Positions 26,874-49,681 of a stretch of DNA of 64,000 nt are shown piece by piece. Under the pieces are notes generated by a model. That model searched no databases and was not told the origin of the DNA. It saw only the letters and a list, made by a program, of their open reading frames with translations. The stretch's first letter is position 1, and each line of letters opens with the position of its first letter. A program made the translations under genes and the position numbers. The DNA comes from Mycobacterium noviomagense (lineage in GTDB: Bacteria > Actinomycetota > Actinomycetes > Mycobacteriales > Mycobacteriaceae): contig NZ_AP022583.1 of the NCBI RefSeq assembly GCF_010731635.1, positions 868,001-932,000 of the forward strand, written 5' to 3'.

Positions 26874-27890
26874 ATGGCGAGCGCAATGGCAGAAGAAGGC
26901 AGCGCACGCAATGTAGTTGCGGTTGGTGCATCGGCGGGCGGGGTCGAGGCGCTCACCCAGTTCGCATCCGGCTTGCCGCCGGATCTGCTGTGTGCCGTTT
27001 TGGTTGTCCTGCACATGCCGGCCGGCGCACCGAGCGTCCTGGCCCGCATCATCGACCGCAACGGTCCACTGCCGGCCGTGACCGCCGAGCATGGCGCGCC
27101 GCTGGAGCACGGCACCATCCACGTCGCGATCCCGAACCGTCATCTGCTGGTGAAGGACCACCGGATCGTCCTGTCGGACGGCCCCACCGAGAACGGGCAC
27201 CGACCCGCCATCAACGCGTTATTCCGGTCGGTGGCGCTGGGTTATGGACCGCGGGCGGTCGGGGTGCTGCTCTCCGGTGTGCTCGACGACGGCGTGCTGG
27301 GATCGGCGGCCATCCGGTCGCGGGGCGGCACGACGATTGCACAATCGCCTTCCGACGCGCTGTTTTCGGCCATGCCGCAGAACGCGATCGATGCGGGCGT
27401 AATCGACACCGAGGTGTCGGCGCCCGAGGTTGGAGGTCTGCTCAAGCAACTGGCAGATCGAGAATTCGAGGGACACGAGATGGAGCCCGACGCGCGTATG
27501 GAGCTGGAGAACCGAATCGCGATGGCGCGACGGTTCTCAACCGATTTCGACACCGAGAAGCTGGGCCCGCCTTCGGGCTATACCTGCCCGGACTGCAACG
27601 GGTCGTTGGTCGCCGTCAGCGACGGCAATTACCGCTGTCAGGTCGGCCACGCGTGGACAGCTGACGCGTTGCTGCGCGCCCGAGACGAGGAGGTCGAGGA
27701 CGCGCTGTGGATCGCAGTGCGCAGCCTGCAGGAGAAAGCCAAGCTTTCTCGCCGCTTGGCCGACCAAGTCACGCCCGGGATGTTGAGCGAGCGCTACCAC
27801 GCGCTCGCCGACGAGGCGGAGCATGCGATGTCGGTACTGGGCAGCCGGCTGACCGAGGCCTACGGAAAACAGGGCACGCCTGGTGAGTAG
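26874..27890 (+). CDS. CheB-like protein-glutamate methylesterase without receiver domain
   Basis: 338 residues. The CheB catalytic triad is present: Ser20 in VGASAGGVEAL, His47 in VVLHMPAG and Asp139 in LSGVLDDG. The usual N-terminal response-regulator domain is missing. The C-terminal ~120 residues contain CPDCNGS...CQVGHAWT, a zinc-ribbon-like pair of cysteines, and a helical tail. CheB enzymes remove methyl groups from glutamates of chemoreceptors, but no chemoreceptor or flagellar gene is visible, so the target must differ. The stop overlaps the next start by 8 nt. Alternative start: ATG at 26886. Confidence 0.85.
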   Translation: MASAMAEEGSARNVVAVGASAGGVEALTQFASGLPPDLLCAVLVVLHMPAGAPSVLARIIDRNGPLPAVTAEHGAPLEHGTIHVAIPNRHLLVKDHRIVLSDGPTENGHRPAINALFRSVALGYGPRAVGVLLSGVLDDGVLGSAAIRSRGGTTIAQSPSDALFSAMPQNAIDAGVIDTEVSAPEVGGLLKQLADREFEGHEMEPDARMELENRIAMARRFSTDFDTEKLGPPSGYTCPDCNGSLVAVSDGNYRCQVGHAWTADALLRARDEEVEDALWIAVRSLQEKAKLSRRLADQVTPGMLSERYHALADEAEHAMSVLGSRLTEAYGKQGTPGE

Positions 27891-28638
27891 GCCGACCAGC
27901 CAGCTGACGATCTACGCGGCGAGGATCGCGGAGGTGCGGCTGCTCACTGTTGACGGCGTGTTAAACAGTTCGACCTACTTGAAGCTGCGCGACACCGTCA
28001 TCAAGGCCGCACTGGACGAGCCGCGTGCTGTCATCGTCGACGTCACCATGCTCGACGTCCCAGCGTCGTCGGCCTGGTCGGTTTTCACTAGCGCACGCTG
28101 GCATGTCAGCACCTGGCCGGATGTCCCGATCATGTTGGTGTGCGGGCATGCGCGGGGACGCAGGACCATCGCGCGCGGCGGTGTCGCGCGATATGTGCCG
28201 GTGTATGCGACGATCGACGCCGCGCTGGAGGCGGCCGCTGACAGCGATCGATTCAACCGGCGCCGGACTCGTGCAGAGTTGCCTGGGTTGGCGACAAGCC
28301 TGCGGCAGGCACGCGAACTTGTCGCCGAGTGGCTGGGCGCCTGGTCGCAATCCGCCCTCATCCCGGTGGCGACCGTGATCGTCAACGTGTTCGTCGAAAA
28401 CGTGCTGCAGCACACGGCCAGTGCCCCGGTGGTAGTGCTCGAAAGCGACGGTACGACGGTCAGCGTGGCGGTCCAGGACAACAGCCCTGCTCCGGCGGTG
28501 CGTTCCGAGGATTCACTGCACGGGCGCGCCGTGCACGGTTTGGCGATTGTGGCCGCGGTATCCCGAGCCTGGGGCAGCACACCGATGCCCTCCGGAAAGA
28601 CGGTGTGGGCTGTCGTTGGCCCCGAAAACCAACTCTGA
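27883..28638 (+). CDS. STAS plus HATPase-like regulatory protein
   Basis: 251 residues. Residues ~15-110 resemble a STAS anti-sigma-antagonist domain (VIVDVTMLDVPASSAW holds the candidate phosphoserine). Residues ~130-250 resemble a GHKL ATPase of the RsbW type, with VFVENVLQHT as N-box. The G1 box is degenerate (VQDNSPAP instead of DxGxG), so ATP binding may be weak. One protein thus carries both sides of a partner switch. It overlaps the CheB-like gene by 8 nt and precedes the CheR-PAS gene, linking methylation-type signalling with sigma-factor control. Confidence 0.7.
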   Translation: MSRPTSQLTIYAARIAEVRLLTVDGVLNSSTYLKLRDTVIKAALDEPRAVIVDVTMLDVPASSAWSVFTSARWHVSTWPDVPIMLVCGHARGRRTIARGGVARYVPVYATIDAALEAAADSDRFNRRRTRAELPGLATSLRQARELVAEWLGAWSQSALIPVATVIVNVFVENVLQHTASAPVVVLESDGTTVSVAVQDNSPAPAVRSEDSLHGRAVHGLAIVAAVSRAWGSTPMPSGKTVWAVVGPENQL

Positions 28639-44600: not shown

Positions 44601-44969
44601 TCAGCGCTTGAGCTTGCCGTCGCGCACGTCGGTCAACGCGTCCTCGAGCGTCTGGTACAGCGGAAACGCCTCGTCCAGGCCGGTCAACTGAATCGGCCGC
44701 CTGGTTGCCGGGCCACGCGCCACGACTGCGAACGGGGCCGATTTGCTGACTTCCTCATGCGTGGCGGCCAGCAGCCGAAGCCCGGCCGATGCCAGGAATT
44801 CCACCGCAGTGAGGTCGATGACCAGCGCCGCAGGATTGTCGGCGACCACACCACCGATGGCGTCTTCCAACGCCGGAATGGTGACCAGATCGACTTCGCC
44901 GCCGACCGCGAGCACGACGGCGCCCTCGCGGTTCCCTACTGAAATTGTGATCGGATCCGTAGCTGACAA
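44601..44969 (-). CDS. RsbV-like anti-sigma factor antagonist (STAS domain)
   Basis: 122 residues, a single STAS domain. Strand-helix pattern VVLAVGGEVDLVTIPALEDAI followed by VIDLTAVEFLASAGLRLLA, where Ser61 is the expected phosphorylation site. When dephosphorylated by a PP2C phosphatase such a protein frees a sigma factor from its RsbW-type kinase. Both the phosphatase and the kinase domains are in the divergent operon that starts 168 nt away, so it is the likely missing partner of that pathway. Confidence 0.85.
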   Translation of the reverse strand: MSATDPITISVGNREGAVVLAVGGEVDLVTIPALEDAIGGVVADNPAALVIDLTAVEFLASAGLRLLAATHEEVSKSAPFAVVARGPATRRPIQLTGLDEAFPLYQTLEDALTDVRDGKLKR

Positions 44970-45076
44970 CGGCCATCCTTATCTGGCGGTCGATCGCTCT
45001 GTGCTGAACGGTCCGAGCCTAATCCGGGGTGGTTTGGAGTTGGAAAAATCATACTTCAGGCGGTCCCGCGCCGATC

Positions 45077-45086
45077 CTAGCGCTAG
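45077..45086. promoter_or_regulatory. Palindrome in the divergent stressosome promoter region
   Basis: CTAGCGCTAG is a perfect 10-bp palindrome about 50 nt upstream of the rsbR-like start, in the 168-nt region between the divergent STAS gene and the operon. AGGAGG five bases before the ATG is an unusually strong ribosome-binding site. No sigma-specific promoter is convincing. Confidence 0.25.
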
Positions 45087-45137
45087 TCTCTGCAAGGGCT
45101 CGGGGTTTTGCGCAGCGAGCGGAAGCCAGGAGGTTAG

Positions 45138-46040
45138 ATGTCTGATTTGCCGACCGATTTGGCGACCACCACCACCGCCGCCGCGACAGCCGGCATCTCC
45201 AGTGAGGGTCTGCTGCCCCAGCTGGTTCAGCATCTGCGGCAAAATCGGACCGCCCTGCGCGAGGAGTGGGCACGCCGGATCACCGAGGCCGAACTGCTGA
45301 CCGCGATGTCACCGGAGGAACTCTTCTCCGAAGCGACCGCGGTGTACGACAACTACGTCGAGGTGCTCGAGACCGGAAGCGTCGAGGCGCTGCAGGCCTA
45401 CGCCCGCGACCTGTCCGAGCGCATCATTCCGCGGGGCGTGGAGACCGACGAGGTCGTCGGCATCGTGCTGCTCTTGCGTGACGTGCTGGCCCGGTCGCTG
45501 TTCGAGAAGTACCAGTCGGACTTCGACCTGCTGAACCGGGTGCTCGACGCCTACGAGCCGGCCGCCAACCGGATCGCCAACACGGTGGCGGTCAGCTTCG
45601 TGCAGGAGCGCGAGCGGATCATCCGCCAGCAGCAGGAGGCCATCCGCGAGCTGTCCACGCCGGTGCTGCAGGTGCGCGAGCAACTGCTGATCCTGCCGAT
45701 CATCGGCGTCCTGGACAGTCAGCGCGCCCGCCAGCTCACCGAGCAACTGCTTCGGGCCATCCGCAATAACCGCGCCAAGGTGGTGGTCATCGACATCACC
45801 GGTGTGCCGACCATCGACTCCACGGTGGCAAACCACCTGGTGCAGACCGTCGATGCCTCGGGGCTGATGGGCGCGAGCGTCATCATCACCGGCCTGTCGT
45901 CCGAAATCGCGCTGACGTTGGTGACGATCGGGCTGGACCTGTCGAAGATGAACGCGGTCGGCGACCTGCAGGGCGGCATCGAGGAGGCGGAACGCCTGCT
46001 CGGCTACGAGGTCACCCGCACCGGCGAGCAGAGCGCGTAA
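45138..46040 (+). CDS. rsbR: Stressosome scaffold/sensor RsbR homologue
   Basis: 300 residues. The N-terminal ~30-165 is a helical RsbRD_N-type sensor domain, not the globin-like fold of Bacillus RsbRA. A linker helix (RERIIRQQQEAIRELSTPVL) leads to a C-terminal STAS domain. By alignment with Bacillus RsbRA, Ser228 (in TIDSTVAN) replaces Thr171 and Thr260 (in EIALTLVTI) equals Thr205, so both phosphosites are preserved in kind. With RsbS it should form the icosahedral stressosome core. It is the first gene of a tightly packed operon. Confidence 0.88.
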   Translation: MSDLPTDLATTTTAAATAGISSEGLLPQLVQHLRQNRTALREEWARRITEAELLTAMSPEELFSEATAVYDNYVEVLETGSVEALQAYARDLSERIIPRGVETDEVVGIVLLLRDVLARSLFEKYQSDFDLLNRVLDAYEPAANRIANTVAVSFVQERERIIRQQQEAIRELSTPVLQVREQLLILPIIGVLDSQRARQLTEQLLRAIRNNRAKVVVIDITGVPTIDSTVANHLVQTVDASGLMGASVIITGLSSEIALTLVTIGLDLSKMNAVGDLQGGIEEAERLLGYEVTRTGEQSA

Positions 46041-46074
46041 CAGTGCATTCCACCCGGGCTACTGGGAGCCTTGC

Positions 46075-46464
46075 ATGCCAGTACCCATCCTGAAGCAAGG
46101 CCCCATTCTCATCGCGACGGTCCAGGCCGCGCTCACCGACTCGGATACCGAACGGCTCCGCCAGGACCTGATGGAACGGGTCAACCGTTTCCGCGCGCAA
46201 GGCATCATCGTCGACGTCACCGCCATCGACGTAATGGACTCGTTCGCCGCCCGATCGCTGCGCACGATCGCCCACATGACCCGGCTGCGCGGCGCCGACA
46301 CCGTGATCGTGGGGCTGCAGCCCGAAGTTGCCTTCGCGATGGTCCAGCTGGGGCTTGCGTTCGACGGTATGCACACCGCGCTGGATCTCGAAGAGGGACT
46401 TGCCCTGCTCAATGGCCGACTGACGCGTCGAAAAGCGACGATCGGACGTGACGGTGTGGGATGA
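46075..46464 (+). CDS. rsbS: Stressosome scaffold RsbS homologue
   Basis: 129 residues, a stand-alone STAS domain closely following Bacillus RsbS in IVDVTAIDVMDSFAAR, where Ser56 corresponds to the phosphorylated Ser59. The segment VGLQPEVAFAMVQLGLAF and the ending TALDLEEGLALLN also match. It sequesters RsbT until phosphorylated. The 3' end overlaps rsbT by 17 nt. Confidence 0.9.
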   Translation: MPVPILKQGPILIATVQAALTDSDTERLRQDLMERVNRFRAQGIIVDVTAIDVMDSFAARSLRTIAHMTRLRGADTVIVGLQPEVAFAMVQLGLAFDGMHTALDLEEGLALLNGRLTRRKATIGRDGVG

Positions 46465-46864
46465 GATCGTCGTGGACGTGGATCATCCCGACGACATCGT
46501 CATCGCACGCCAGGCAGGGCATCAACTCGCTCGGGATCTCGGATTCTCCTTGACCGACGTCACCATGATCGCCACCGCGATCTCCGAAGTCGCGCGCAAT
46601 ATCACCAGCTACGCGGGCCGCGGGGCGGTTCGGGTGGCGGTGGCCGACCGGGAGGGCCGCAAGGCGTTGGTAGTGCACGCAGAAGACGAGGGACCCGGCA
46701 TTGCCGACATCGCGCGCGCGCTCGAAGACGGATACTCGACTGGTCGTGGGCTCGGCCTGGGCCTGCCTGGTGCGCGCCGCCTGATGGACCGGCTGATCGT
46801 GGAATCCACGCCCGGCCGGGGTACGCACGTCGAGATGTGGAAATGGGTTCCGTCCGGTGCGTAG
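46448..46864 (+). CDS. rsbT: Switch kinase RsbT homologue
   Basis: 138 residues of the GHKL serine kinase family. The N-box is ISEVARN (Glu47, Asn51), the G1 box DEGPGI (80-85), and the G2 box GLGLGLPGARRL. It phosphorylates RsbS and RsbR, leaves the stressosome and activates an RsbU-type phosphatase. The GTG start lies inside rsbS, and the stop region overlaps the next gene by 8 nt. Confidence 0.9.
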   Translation: MTVWDEIVVDVDHPDDIVIARQAGHQLARDLGFSLTDVTMIATAISEVARNITSYAGRGAVRVAVADREGRKALVVHAEDEGPGIADIARALEDGYSTGRGLGLGLPGARRLMDRLIVESTPGRGTHVEMWKWVPSGA

Positions 46865-47483
46865 GCGGGGCCGGCTAGGGCCGATCGAGTGGGCGGCGGC
46901 ACGCCGCCCGCGGCCGGACGAGGAAATCTGCGGCGACTATCCGATTGCGCTCGACCTTGGCGGCAAAGCCGCCCTTTTCGGCGTGCTGGACGGCCTCGGC
47001 CACGGAACAGAAGCCGCAACAGCGGCGATGCGCGCTGCGGACATGATCAGCGACGCGCGCGGGGAACCCCTGGAGATCCTCTTTCAGCTGTGCCATCGCG
47101 CACTGGCCGACACCAGAGGTGTGGCAATGACTTTGGCGCAGCTTGATTTCGCAGCCGCGACGATGCGTTGGATCGGGGTGGGCAACGTCACCGCCAACCT
47201 GGTCGCGAAGGCGGCGAGTGGTGTCGAGGTCCGGTCGTGTGCACTGCTTGCCAGCGGAACGGTCGGCTATCGGCTGCCGGAAGTTTTGCATCCGAATTCG
47301 GTGGGAATTCGGCCCGGTGACCTGCTGATCGTTGCCAGCGACGGCATCTCTGAAGACTATTTGGACAGCATCGACTTCGCCGGCCCAGCCATGACCATCG
47401 CAGAACAAATTCTGGATAAGCACGCCAAGGAAACCGACGACGCGTTGGTGCTTGCCGCGCGTCACCGAGGCTTCTCGTCATGA
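46857..47483 (+). CDS. rsbX: PP2C phosphatase RsbX homologue
   Basis: 208 residues. PP2C/SpoIIE-type metal-binding aspartates are in LDGLGHGTEAA, VASDGISEDYL and TDDALVLAAR. RsbX removes phosphates from RsbS and RsbR to reset the stressosome. It is small, with no sensor domain, as expected for RsbX. Start GTG overlaps rsbT, and the stop overlaps the next gene as ATGA. Confidence 0.85.
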   Translation: MRRRGRLGPIEWAAARRPRPDEEICGDYPIALDLGGKAALFGVLDGLGHGTEAATAAMRAADMISDARGEPLEILFQLCHRALADTRGVAMTLAQLDFAAATMRWIGVGNVTANLVAKAASGVEVRSCALLASGTVGYRLPEVLHPNSVGIRPGDLLIVASDGISEDYLDSIDFAGPAMTIAEQILDKHAKETDDALVLAARHRGFSS

Positions 47484-49681
47484 CCGACCTGGCAGCGGAC
47501 TTCCATGTCCGCTATGCCGCCGCACTGCGCACCCACCTGCAAGCCCGCAACGAGGCCAGCCTGGCGGTCGGTCATGAGCTGGGCCGCCGGGCACTGCAGG
47601 ACCGCATCAGCATGCTCGAGATCATCGAAAACCACTTCCGACTGGTCGAAGATGCGCGACTCGACGGCCCTGCAGCGCTTGAATTCCTGCTGCAAACCCT
47701 CGCCGCACTCGACGTCGCGACTCGCGGATTTCTCGACAGCGCAAAAGGTTACGCGCAACAGCGCGCCCGCGCCGACCAGCTTGCCGACCGCGACGAATTT
47801 CGCACTGCGCTGGTCAATTCGCTGCAGGAGGGGTTTTTCGTCGCCGACCAAGACGGCACCGTCGTCGAGATCAACGACGCGTTCGCCGAGATCACCGGCT
47901 ACCCCGCCGACGGTCTGCCGTACCGGTGGCCGCACCCGTGGTTGGTCGACGTCCAGGCCGCAAATCATCAGCAAGGCCTCCTGGTACAGGGCGGCAGCGT
48001 CCAGTACGAGACGCCGATTCGACATCGCGACGGCCACCTGGCGTGGGTGGCGGTGAGCATCAACGCAGTCACCGACTACGCCGCCGAAAAAGGCATCTAC
48101 GTCGGCACGATTCGCGACATCACCGCACAGCGGGCTTTCGCGGCCCGCGAGAACGCGGTTTTGCGCCTGGCCACCGCCGTGGGAGTGGCCAAGAGCGTCG
48201 CGGAGGTGCTGTCCATCACCCTCGACGAGTGTCGGGTGGCGCTCGACGTGCAGCGGGTCGTGACGGTCATGTGGCCGACCAACGGCGGCGAGCCGACCGT
48301 CCAAGTGGCCGGCGAACCCGCCGACTCCAATTGGCGCGACCTGAATCCGTTGCTGCGCCAGACGTTTGAAACGGCTCGTCATCAGCTGCCGCTGACCGTC
48401 CAGACGGTCGAATGGGCCGATACGCCAGGCAAGTCACGCGGAATCGTCGCTGTGCTCTCCGGCACCGGGGACGTCGCGTTGTGGTTGGAGCTTGCGACAC
48501 CCCGCTGGATCAGCGCCGAGGACCGGCTGCTGATCACCGTGCTTATCGGCCATCTCGGCCTGGCGATACAGCATGTGCGCCAATTCGAAAGCGCACGCGA
48601 GACGTCGCTGACCCTGCAGCGCGCGATGCTTGCGCCCATCGCTCTGCCGTCCGGCTTCGCGGTTCGCTACGAGCCCGCGGTTCCGCCGCTGGAAATCGGC
48701 GGCGACTGGTACGACGTACTGTCGCTCGGCGACCACCGCATCGGGATCGTGGTGGGCGACTGCGTGGGCCGCGGCCTGCCGGCCGCCGCAGTGATGGGCC
48801 AGCTGCGCAGCTCGGCACGTGCCCTGCTGCTGACCGGCGCCGAACCCGCGCTGCTGCTCGAAGACCTCGACGCGGCGGCGGCACTGATCCCGGGCGCCTA
48901 CTGCACGACGGTGTTCTTGGGCATCCTCGACACCGAATCCGGCGAGCTGCGCTACAGCAATGCCGGTCACCCGCCCGCGGTACTGGCCGCGCCCGGGTCC
49001 GGGACCGCACTGCTCGCCGATGCTCATTCGGTGCCGCTGGCGGTGCACCGGGATCACGGCCGCCCCCAGACCACGCAGGTCGTACCGCCGGGTTCGACGC
49101 TGATTGTCTTCACCGACGGCCTCGTCGAGCGCAAGCACGAGCCGATCGACGCCGGAATCAACTGCGTCGCAGAGATTTTGACCCAAAACGCCGATTCGAC
49201 CGTCGGCCAGGTTGCCGACGCGGTGCTTCGCGAGCTTGCCCCGCCAGCCGGATATGACGACGACGTCGCCCTGGTGGTATATCGGCGCCCCCAGACTGCA
49301 CTGCGAATGAAAACCGATGCGAGCGCAGACCAGCTGGCCGACGTGCGGCATCGACTCACCGCATGGCTGGAGTCGTGCGCGGTACCGGGTTCACTGGTCG
49401 CGGACATCGTGCTCGCGGTCTACGAGGCATACGCCAACTGCGTCGAGCATGCCTACCGGGGTGCATGCGCCGGACAGGTGCGGGTCGACGTCGACATCGC
49501 CGGCGGTATCATCCAGGCCCGGGTCGCCGATTCCGGTTCGTGGAAGACACCGCAGCCCGGTCCGGGCGGGCGGGGCCTGAAGCTGATCGACGCCGTGAGC
49601 GACGGAGTTGAGCTGGAGCACGGCCCCTCTGGAACGACGGTCACGATGAGCTTCCGGCTACCGCCAGCCGAGTCAAATTAG
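47480..49681 (+). CDS. PAS-GAF-PP2C-ATPase sigma regulator (RsbU/RsbW hybrid)
   Basis: 733 residues. After a helical N-terminus that may bind RsbT, a PAS domain (~110-220; [17 protein letters not shown]) and a GAF domain (~225-375) precede a SpoIIE/PP2C phosphatase (~385-605; [44 protein letters not shown]). A C-terminal RsbW-like GHKL kinase (~610-730) has [14 protein letters not shown] and a [11 protein letters not shown] box. It resembles Rv1364c without the terminal STAS domain, and the separate STAS protein encoded divergently could fill that role. It closes the operon; a KstR box overlaps its stop codon. Confidence 0.88.

Follow-up and report, generated by a model that had tools for sequence, protein, structure and literature searches.

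A stressosome block with a hybrid output enzyme at an unusual chromosomal site in Mycobacterium noviomagense, its probable link to the SigF partner switch and its apparent erosion in relatives

The stretch of DNA analysed here, referred to as the window, comprises 64,000 nucleotides (nt) of Mycobacterium noviomagense (assembly GCF_010731635.1, contig NZ_AP022583.1, positions 868,001-932,000), a genome consisting of one 4.78-Mb contig. The window carries a confirmed block of six genes encoding a divergent STAS-domain protein, RsbR, RsbS, RsbT, RsbX and a multidomain hybrid protein, and this block quite probably represents a stressosome together with an output enzyme that feeds the SigF partner switch. 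Such modules are already known in mycobacteria, as rsbV, rsbR, rsbS, rsbT, rsbX and rsbUW have been reported in most slow-growing species, and RsbR, RsbS and RsbT of M. marinum interact (Ramesh et al. 2021, PMC8115616). The block is thus of an ordinary kind at an unusual site, and the series of gene losses seen in relatives is more informative than the module itself.

In the proposed scheme, RsbR, with its globin-like sensor and STAS domain, and RsbS would build a scaffold holding RsbT. Upon stress, RsbT would phosphorylate RsbS and RsbR, depart and dock on the N-terminal RsbU_N domain and helical linker of the hybrid, thereby switching on the PP2C phosphatase domain of the latter. The phosphatase would in turn strip the phosphate from Ser61 of the divergent STAS protein, the RsfB orthologue, and dephosphorylated RsfB would bind UsfX, encoded beside sigF at another locus, so that SigF is freed. 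The C-terminal ATPase of the hybrid would be the opposing RsfB kinase and probably not an anti-sigma factor itself; both directions of the RsfB switch would then reside in one chain with RsbT selecting between them, and RsbX would reset RsbR and RsbS. For M. noviomagense we infer every one of these biochemical steps, as well as the direction of the switch and the signal.

The block begins on the minus strand with the rsfB orthologue (44601..44969), the RsbV of the module, a 122-amino-acid (aa) STAS anti-sigma-factor antagonist with a predicted phosphosite at Ser61 (Pfam STAS, 65 bits). After a divergent intergenic region without a SigF-type promoter motif (44970..45137), the plus strand encodes RsbR (45138..46040; 300 aa, globin-like N-terminal sensor and C-terminal STAS domain of 56 bits, phosphosites Ser228 and Thr260), the single-STAS scaffold subunit RsbS (46075..46464; 129 aa, 52.5 bits, phosphosite Ser56), the GHKL serine/threonine kinase RsbT (46448..46864; 138 aa, Pfam HATPase 42 bits), which is predicted to activate the hybrid, the short PP2C phosphatase RsbX (46857..47483; 208 aa, Pfam SpoIIE 40 bits), expected to reset RsbR and RsbS, and the 733-aa hybrid 'RsbUW' (47480..49681; Pfam SpoIIE 143, HATPase_c_2 89, RsbU_N 55.9 and PAS 34 bits). 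All six genes thus lie where an earlier note on this DNA, made from the letters alone, had grouped RsbR, RsbS, RsbT, RsbX and an output protein. Its description of an overlapping operon applies to rsbS/rsbT, rsbT/rsbX and rsbX/hybrid, which overlap by 17, 8 and 4 nt, but not to rsbR and rsbS, which are separated by 34 nt. The domains of the hybrid follow the order RsbU_N (residues 11-80), linker (81-104), PAS (107-214), a GAF-like region (about 216-345), PP2C (418-603) and HATPase (614-725). Pfam bears out the PAS, PP2C and ATPase parts of the fusion as first described, detects no GAF domain in the hybrid at E ≤ 1e-3, and adds the RsbU_N domain that had been overlooked, at more than twice its cut-off of 25.5 bits. 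No loss of RsbT docking, which the earlier note had raised as a possibility, is seen at the N-terminus of the hybrid; the presence of RsbU_N there ties the hybrid to RsbT.

A scan of species genomes for relatives of the module gave at least 546 confirmed places, of which the best 80 of 546 by RsbR were kept. As these are the closest loci by RsbR, they make no statement on more distant ones. The order of the minus-strand STAS gene followed by rsbR, rsbS, rsbT and rsbX is found in 80/80 loci and the hybrid in 78; the other two are contigs ending before the position of the hybrid, and some of the 78 hybrids are also cut by contig ends. Ser61 of RsfB, Ser56 of RsbS, Ser228 and Thr260 of RsbR and the tested kinase-box residues (N, G1, G2) of RsbT are identical in all 80, as are the metal aspartates of RsbX at every aligned position (79-80 of 80). 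The tested PP2C and ATPase residues of the hybrid are identical in all 76-77 aligned of the 78 proteins, except D412 (75 D, 2 E) and R431 (76 R, 1 S), and the GHKL kinase-box residues E649, N653, D684, G686, G697 and G699 occur in all 76 aligned. The claim that phosphosites, kinase boxes and phosphatase aspartates are intact is thereby upheld. The closest named hybrid is that of M. heckeshornense (80%), which probably puts the organism in the vicinity of M. heckeshornense and M. xenopi, and rsbR is matched at E ≤ 1e-30 in 64 of 198 genomes drawn from the genus.

The chromosomal location varies. One site is common to 64 of the 80 loci by their upstream flanks and to 65 by their downstream flanks, and in M. 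arosiense (L014) this usual site holds a ponA2-like gene and a metallophosphoesterase gene, which we take to be the surroundings of rsfB (Rv3687c) in M. tuberculosis. The block of the window is instead flanked by genes that include those for Ku, PfkB and mannitol dehydrogenases upstream and Nramp downstream. Of 18 open reading frames (ORFs) in its flanks, 16 are unmatched in the 80 loci, some of which are short, and the other two find only distant matches (31% in 2 loci and 37% in 7). The close relative G185 has the same flanks, so that the two genomes carry the block at a site unseen among the 80 loci, and the ponA2-side site of the M. noviomagense genome is free of rsb genes. Upstream flanks fall into groups of 64, 6, 5 and 2 loci (the last being the window and G185) and five singles, some on short contigs. 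By flank similarity the block occupies several chromosomal sites in the genus, with RsfB moving along, and this movement as a unit supports RsfB as a member of the system.

The unmatched flanks, the module-free ponA2-side site and the several sites in the genus could also mean that the module is mobile or was recently acquired here and is not a native stress pathway. This we consider improbable. The base composition is ordinary, the hybrid groups with those of slow-growing mycobacteria (support 91/89), the close relative shares the site, and a unit that moves need not be non-native. A foreign island was likewise considered and found unsupported, since the guanine-plus-cytosine (GC) content of the block, about 64-68%, resembles that of its surroundings even though the site is unusual; a lower stretch of about 60% lies at 42-44.5 kb, over a cyclase gene and the Ku genes.

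The identity of the divergent STAS protein connects the block to SigF. Over all 122 residues it aligns with RsfB from the solved UsfX-RsfB structure PDB 8ih8 (source organism presumably M. tuberculosis) with an E value of 1e-42 and 148 bits, and its M. marinum relative, named RsfB by the depositors, is 68% identical. In the same comparison a STAS paralogue at 3352893 of the M. noviomagense genome (G000) scores 86 bits, only its 97-aa domain being compared. The protein, which the earlier note had suggested could be the RsbV, is on these similarities identified as an RsfB orthologue. The paralogue's position falls in a second STAS-HATPase operon of the genome (3352398-3353183, L135). In four loci from genomes without rsbR (L148-L151), such another STAS-HATPase operon has a PP2C gene on the opposite strand, a layout resembling that described for rsfB-rsbW2-rsfR of M. 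smegmatis. By this analogy, the M. smegmatis RsfB may be a paralogue of the RsfB considered here.

In line with the earlier note, which saw no sigma factor nearby, none of the five genome-wide matches to the SigB/F/G model lies within the window. Only one of the five, at 2953070-2953747, exceeds the family cut-off, and this one does adjoin an RsbW-type protein, UsfX, which directly precedes it and matches UsfX of 8ih8 (E 3e-65) as well as 8jzt, annotated as anti-sigma-F factor RsbW. Because the only such sigma factor over the cut-off adjoins UsfX, the RsfB-UsfX-SigF partner switch is the likely target. A dedicated sigma factor with its own RsbW and RsbV elsewhere, which the earlier note had seen as a possible objection, is therefore half present: SigF and UsfX lie elsewhere, and the antagonist RsfB lies in the block. 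Convergent with sigF is a further STAS gene (2953784-2954065, minus strand), with Thr instead of Ser at the usual phosphosite as read from the alignment.

The presence of UsfX bears on the role of the hybrid ATPase. The UsfX of this genome lacks the N-box Asn and the glycine boxes, as read from the alignment, and the hybrid retains its kinase boxes. In M. smegmatis, RsbW1 binds SigF and is not a kinase, and RsbW2 is an RsfB kinase that does not bind SigF (PMC7693655). Taken together, the boxes and this precedent make it more likely that the hybrid both phosphorylates and dephosphorylates RsfB and that the anti-sigma factor is UsfX. The hybrid might instead be a true RsbU-RsbW fusion, a second anti-sigma factor whose ATPase holds SigF and phosphorylates RsfB, as could be read from its HATPase_c_2 domain, in which the N, G1 and G2 boxes are intact, from the RsbU-RsbW part of Rv1364c as its closest solved sequence, and from a fold match to Bacillus subtilis RsbW (template modelling (TM) score 0.90 by target). 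However, a dedicated UsfX adjoins sigF, the module has no SigB/F/G-class sigma factor in its vicinity, and M. smegmatis SigF is bound by RsbW1 only and not by the kinase RsbW2 (PMC7693655), which leaves such a fusion with little chance of being correct. The earlier statement that RsbU and RsbW activities lie in one chain thus holds for the PP2C domain and the kinase boxes, and the RsbW part is only half likely given the separate UsfX beside sigF.

An output other than SigF, with the STAS protein and the hybrid acting on another partner such as a different STAS, PP2C or ATPase protein encoded in the genome, is improbable as well: besides 12 matches to STAS the genome does encode several PP2C and ATPase proteins, a diguanylate cyclase of Moorella is controlled by RsbU_N and RsbT, and RsbU_N histidine kinases occur in stressosome operons (both PMC12143880), yet the STAS protein matches RsfB over its full length at 148 bits against the 86 bits of the paralogue's domain, and RsfB and UsfX occur together in the solved complex 8ih8.

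Returning to the hybrid as an RsfB kinase and phosphatase under stressosome control, its AlphaFold model (predicted local distance difference test (pLDDT) 76.5, predicted TM score (pTM) 0.46) displays a four-helix N-terminus, a low-confidence segment at 79-113, the PAS domain, an alpha/beta GAF-like domain at about 216-345 and a long helix (346-383) running into the PP2C domain. Fold comparison ranks Rv1364c (3ke6) first and also retrieves PAS-GAF phytochromes; residues 216-345 are accordingly read as GAF-like, and the GAF domain named earlier stands in this qualified form, from the model. For RsbR, the earlier note had proposed an RsbRD_N-type sensor instead of a globin-like one. RsbRD_N scores 23.1 bits, slightly below the Pfam cut-off of 24.3, and residues 31-293 align with residues 7-274 of Listeria RsbR (phmmer, E 2e-30). 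The RsbR model (pLDDT 71.9, pTM 0.45) has Listeria RsbR 7b0u as its top Foldseek match (E 1.5e-12) and the globin sensor domain 5ohf as a weak one (rank 50, E 1.3e-2, TM 0.67 by target). Given the near-full-length match to Listeria RsbR and the fold match to a globin sensor, RsbRD_N and the globin-like fold are probably not the alternatives that the earlier note had made of them. Heme binding requires a proximal His, and as His32 is the sole histidine of RsbR before residue 150, heme binding looks unlikely.

The relatives without rsbR suggest which parts of the module depend on each other. The STAS protein is matched in 163 of the 198 genomes, and 30 loci, in batches of 18 and 12, were taken from the better STAS matches in the roughly 100 genomes without rsbR. 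In 22 of the 30 loci, with no genomic rsbR match, an rsfB-type gene and an unbroken PP2C-HATPase hybrid gene are transcribed divergently, and this retention makes RsfB and the hybrid look like the core pair. Three states can be distinguished. In state A (11 loci) rsbT is absent and RsbU_N undetected; in state B (7 loci) rsbT is absent from the locus and RsbU_N scores 21-39 bits; and in state C (4 loci; L120, L129, L131 and L133) rsbT is adjacent, RsbU_N scores 51-62 bits, and rsbR, rsbS and rsbX are missing from the locus. At L117, L142 and L145 a STAS gene is present, with the hybrid not in the stretch examined. Genome-wide searches of the first batch matched RsbS at E ≤ 1e-3 in 0 of 18 genomes and RsbT at E ≤ 1e-10 in four, which are the state-C ones, and rsbX was looked for within the loci only; an RsbS control search succeeded in 6/6 module-bearing genomes and in 0/4 state-C genomes. 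RsbU_N reaches 51-65 bits in 10 proteins from loci with rsbT and 21-39 bits in 7 from loci without it, being undetected in 11 others, and the Pfam scores separate the rsbT-bearing proteins from the rsbT-less B set.

The same division is seen in the mean identity of each domain to the window hybrid, calculated for ten diverse full-module loci of the 78 and for the 4 C, 7 B and 11 A loci. In this order (full, C, B, A), RsbU_N averages 68, 62, 49 and 9% and the linker (81-104) 71, 70, 43 and 46%, whereas the other parts remain level: PAS 64, 60, 62 and 64%, GAF-like 60, 52, 53 and 56%, PP2C 67, 62, 63 and 61%, and ATPase 50, 52, 46 and 50%, the PAS, PP2C and ATPase means differing by at most 6 points among states. 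On average, then, only the putative RsbT-docking parts appear to relax, and only where rsbT is gone, which fits the published activation of RsbU by RsbT through the RsbU linker (PMC12143880).

At some loci, traces of the missing genes can still be found. The DNA of L133 is collinear with the M. tusciae locus L071 and retains rsfB, a 46-bp piece of rsbR, the whole rsbT (89%) and the hybrid; rsbS is gone, and almost nothing of rsbX is left. L129 instead keeps a different, 91-bp rsbR piece besides the first rsbR bases, followed by rsbT and the hybrid. At the protein level, the rsbR remnants of L129 (E 5e-11) and L133 (E 5e-6) both beat the best of 30 sets shuffled in two-base blocks (2e-5). The candidate remnants of rsbS (L129, L131) and rsbX (L129-L132, L143, L147) have E values of 4e-4 to 0.07, not beyond the shuffles, L143 and L147 having no shuffle set of their own; position and order make them suggestive. 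Misplaced, chance-like matches also occur among the remnants, for example rsbT pieces with E 0.012 and 0.092, and at L120 no rsbR, rsbS or rsbX remnant was found in the locus. Silent and replacement codon changes in RsbT number 24/7 for L133 and 33/12 for L129, each against L071, and 9/2 between the intact L071 and L070; part of these changes is older than the losses. Additional partial or split rsbR matches in G109, G045 and G075 are perhaps further decaying modules.

A comparison with a species-like tree was weak, since for several key loci the DNA retrieved does not include the ponA2-side genes, and the two trees built for it did not separate relocation from transfer. On the hybrid-core tree (36 rows and 2 outgroups, rsbR-less loci from the first batch only), the presence of rsbR, rsbS and rsbX needs at least 6 changes and that of rsbT at least 2. 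Approximately unbiased (AU) tests, for groups partly named after the tree was seen, reject a single clade for the C loci, for A, B and C together and for the full-module loci, and support for two of the C placements is only moderate (85/78 and 91/73). Stepwise gain of a stressosome by an ancestral RsfB-hybrid pair was set aside, as the rsbR scars beside intact rsbT and the nesting of states in the tree favour loss in at least some lineages. In PMC8115616 the module is inferred to have been acquired after the divergence of the slow growers; the scars speak for losses, at least in part of the lineages.

From these observations it could be proposed, tentatively and at a little less than even chances, that RsbT has persisted after loss of the stressosome in two or more, probably four, mycobacterial lineages, in which rsbR, rsbS and rsbX would have been deleted around an intact rsbT with its kinase residues, RsbU_N and the linker of the hybrid being kept as well. 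RsbT would there work without a scaffold, as a subunit of a single-chain RsfB kinase/phosphatase that senses through its PAS and GAF-like domains, RsbU_N and the linker would decay once rsbT is also lost, and the stressosome would be a removable input on a core switch of RsfB and hybrid. No report of rsbT kept without rsbR and rsbS was found by title and start of abstract, in a search with the subscription literature mostly outside it.

Several points weigh against the scheme and its extension to the relatives. The models of the hybrid and RsbR have only moderate confidence (pTM 0.46 and 0.45). A SigF-type promoter motif, GTTT-N14-18-GGGTA, occurs in 0 of 81 rsfB-rsbR intergenic regions (the window and 80 loci) and at one other place in the window, as expected by chance, and autoregulation of the block by SigF was rejected on these counts. 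The 12 STAS, 7 SpoIIE/PP2C (6 over cut-off) and 18 HATPase_c_2 matches (15 over cut-off) of the genome make cross-talk possible, and the second STAS-HATPase operon could be the main pair of the RsfB/RsbW2 type. As for domain decay, single values of states B and C overlap (RsbU_N 39-58 and 55-66%, linker 17-62 and 54-79%, respectively), and the means are uncorrected for loci related by descent, four B loci and nine A loci each forming one clade in the tree. Finally, L146 (G030) is without rsbT and has an RsbU_N piece of 48.5 bits, with the frame broken between RsbU_N and PP2C.

Among known systems, the closest is the M. marinum RsbRST stressosome (MMAR_5182/5183), with the same gene set including rsbUW and a proposed SigF target (PMC8115616). 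The window block lies at a different chromosomal site, and, compared with the available account, the divergent STAS protein is here identified as RsfB, RsbU_N is mapped and the loss series is described. The sigma-B stressosomes of Bacillus and Listeria also combine RsbR, RsbS, RsbT and RsbX with an RsbU_N-bearing PP2C phosphatase, and window RsbR resembles Listeria RsbR nearly over its full length; in the window, however, the phosphatase is fused to PAS, GAF-like and ATPase domains, the operon has no sigma factor, and the anti-sigma factor is likely a separate protein, UsfX. M. tuberculosis Rv1364c (PAS-PP2C-RsbW-RsbV) likewise has PP2C followed by HATPase in one chain and is the closest solved structure, but differs in its N-terminal PAS domain and C-terminal fused STAS domain (PMC12143880); M. 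noviomagense has its own PP2C-HATPase-STAS homologue at 4157535-4158709. In the RsfB-RsbW2-RsfSR system of M. smegmatis, the same type of antagonist is under an opposed kinase and PP2C phosphatase upstream of RsbW1/UsfX and SigF (PMC7693655, PMC10950880), but kinase and phosphatase are separate proteins and the input is a two-component system, not a stressosome.

The proposed scheme would join mycobacterial stressosomes, for which the M. marinum SigF link has been proposed (PMC8115616), with the RsfB-UsfX-SigF switch, whose sensory input has long been elusive (PMC10950880). Members of the M. tuberculosis complex are reported to be without rsbR, rsbS, rsbT, rsbX and rsbUW (PMC8115616), and if RsfB is the substrate of the stressosome pathway, their module-less RsfB would be an orphan, the terminal part of a stress-sensing pathway that has been lost. 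The loss series may be viewed as a natural experiment on the mutual dependence of stressosome parts, and the rsbT-only strains make the function of RsbT without a stressosome a directly testable question. Elsewhere in the M. noviomagense genome, a 1391-aa open frame (2397214-2399643) with two HATPase matches and a PP2C match follows a STAS match at 2395487 by about 1.4 kb, and window positions 27883-28638 contain a further STAS-domain match of 34.8 bits.

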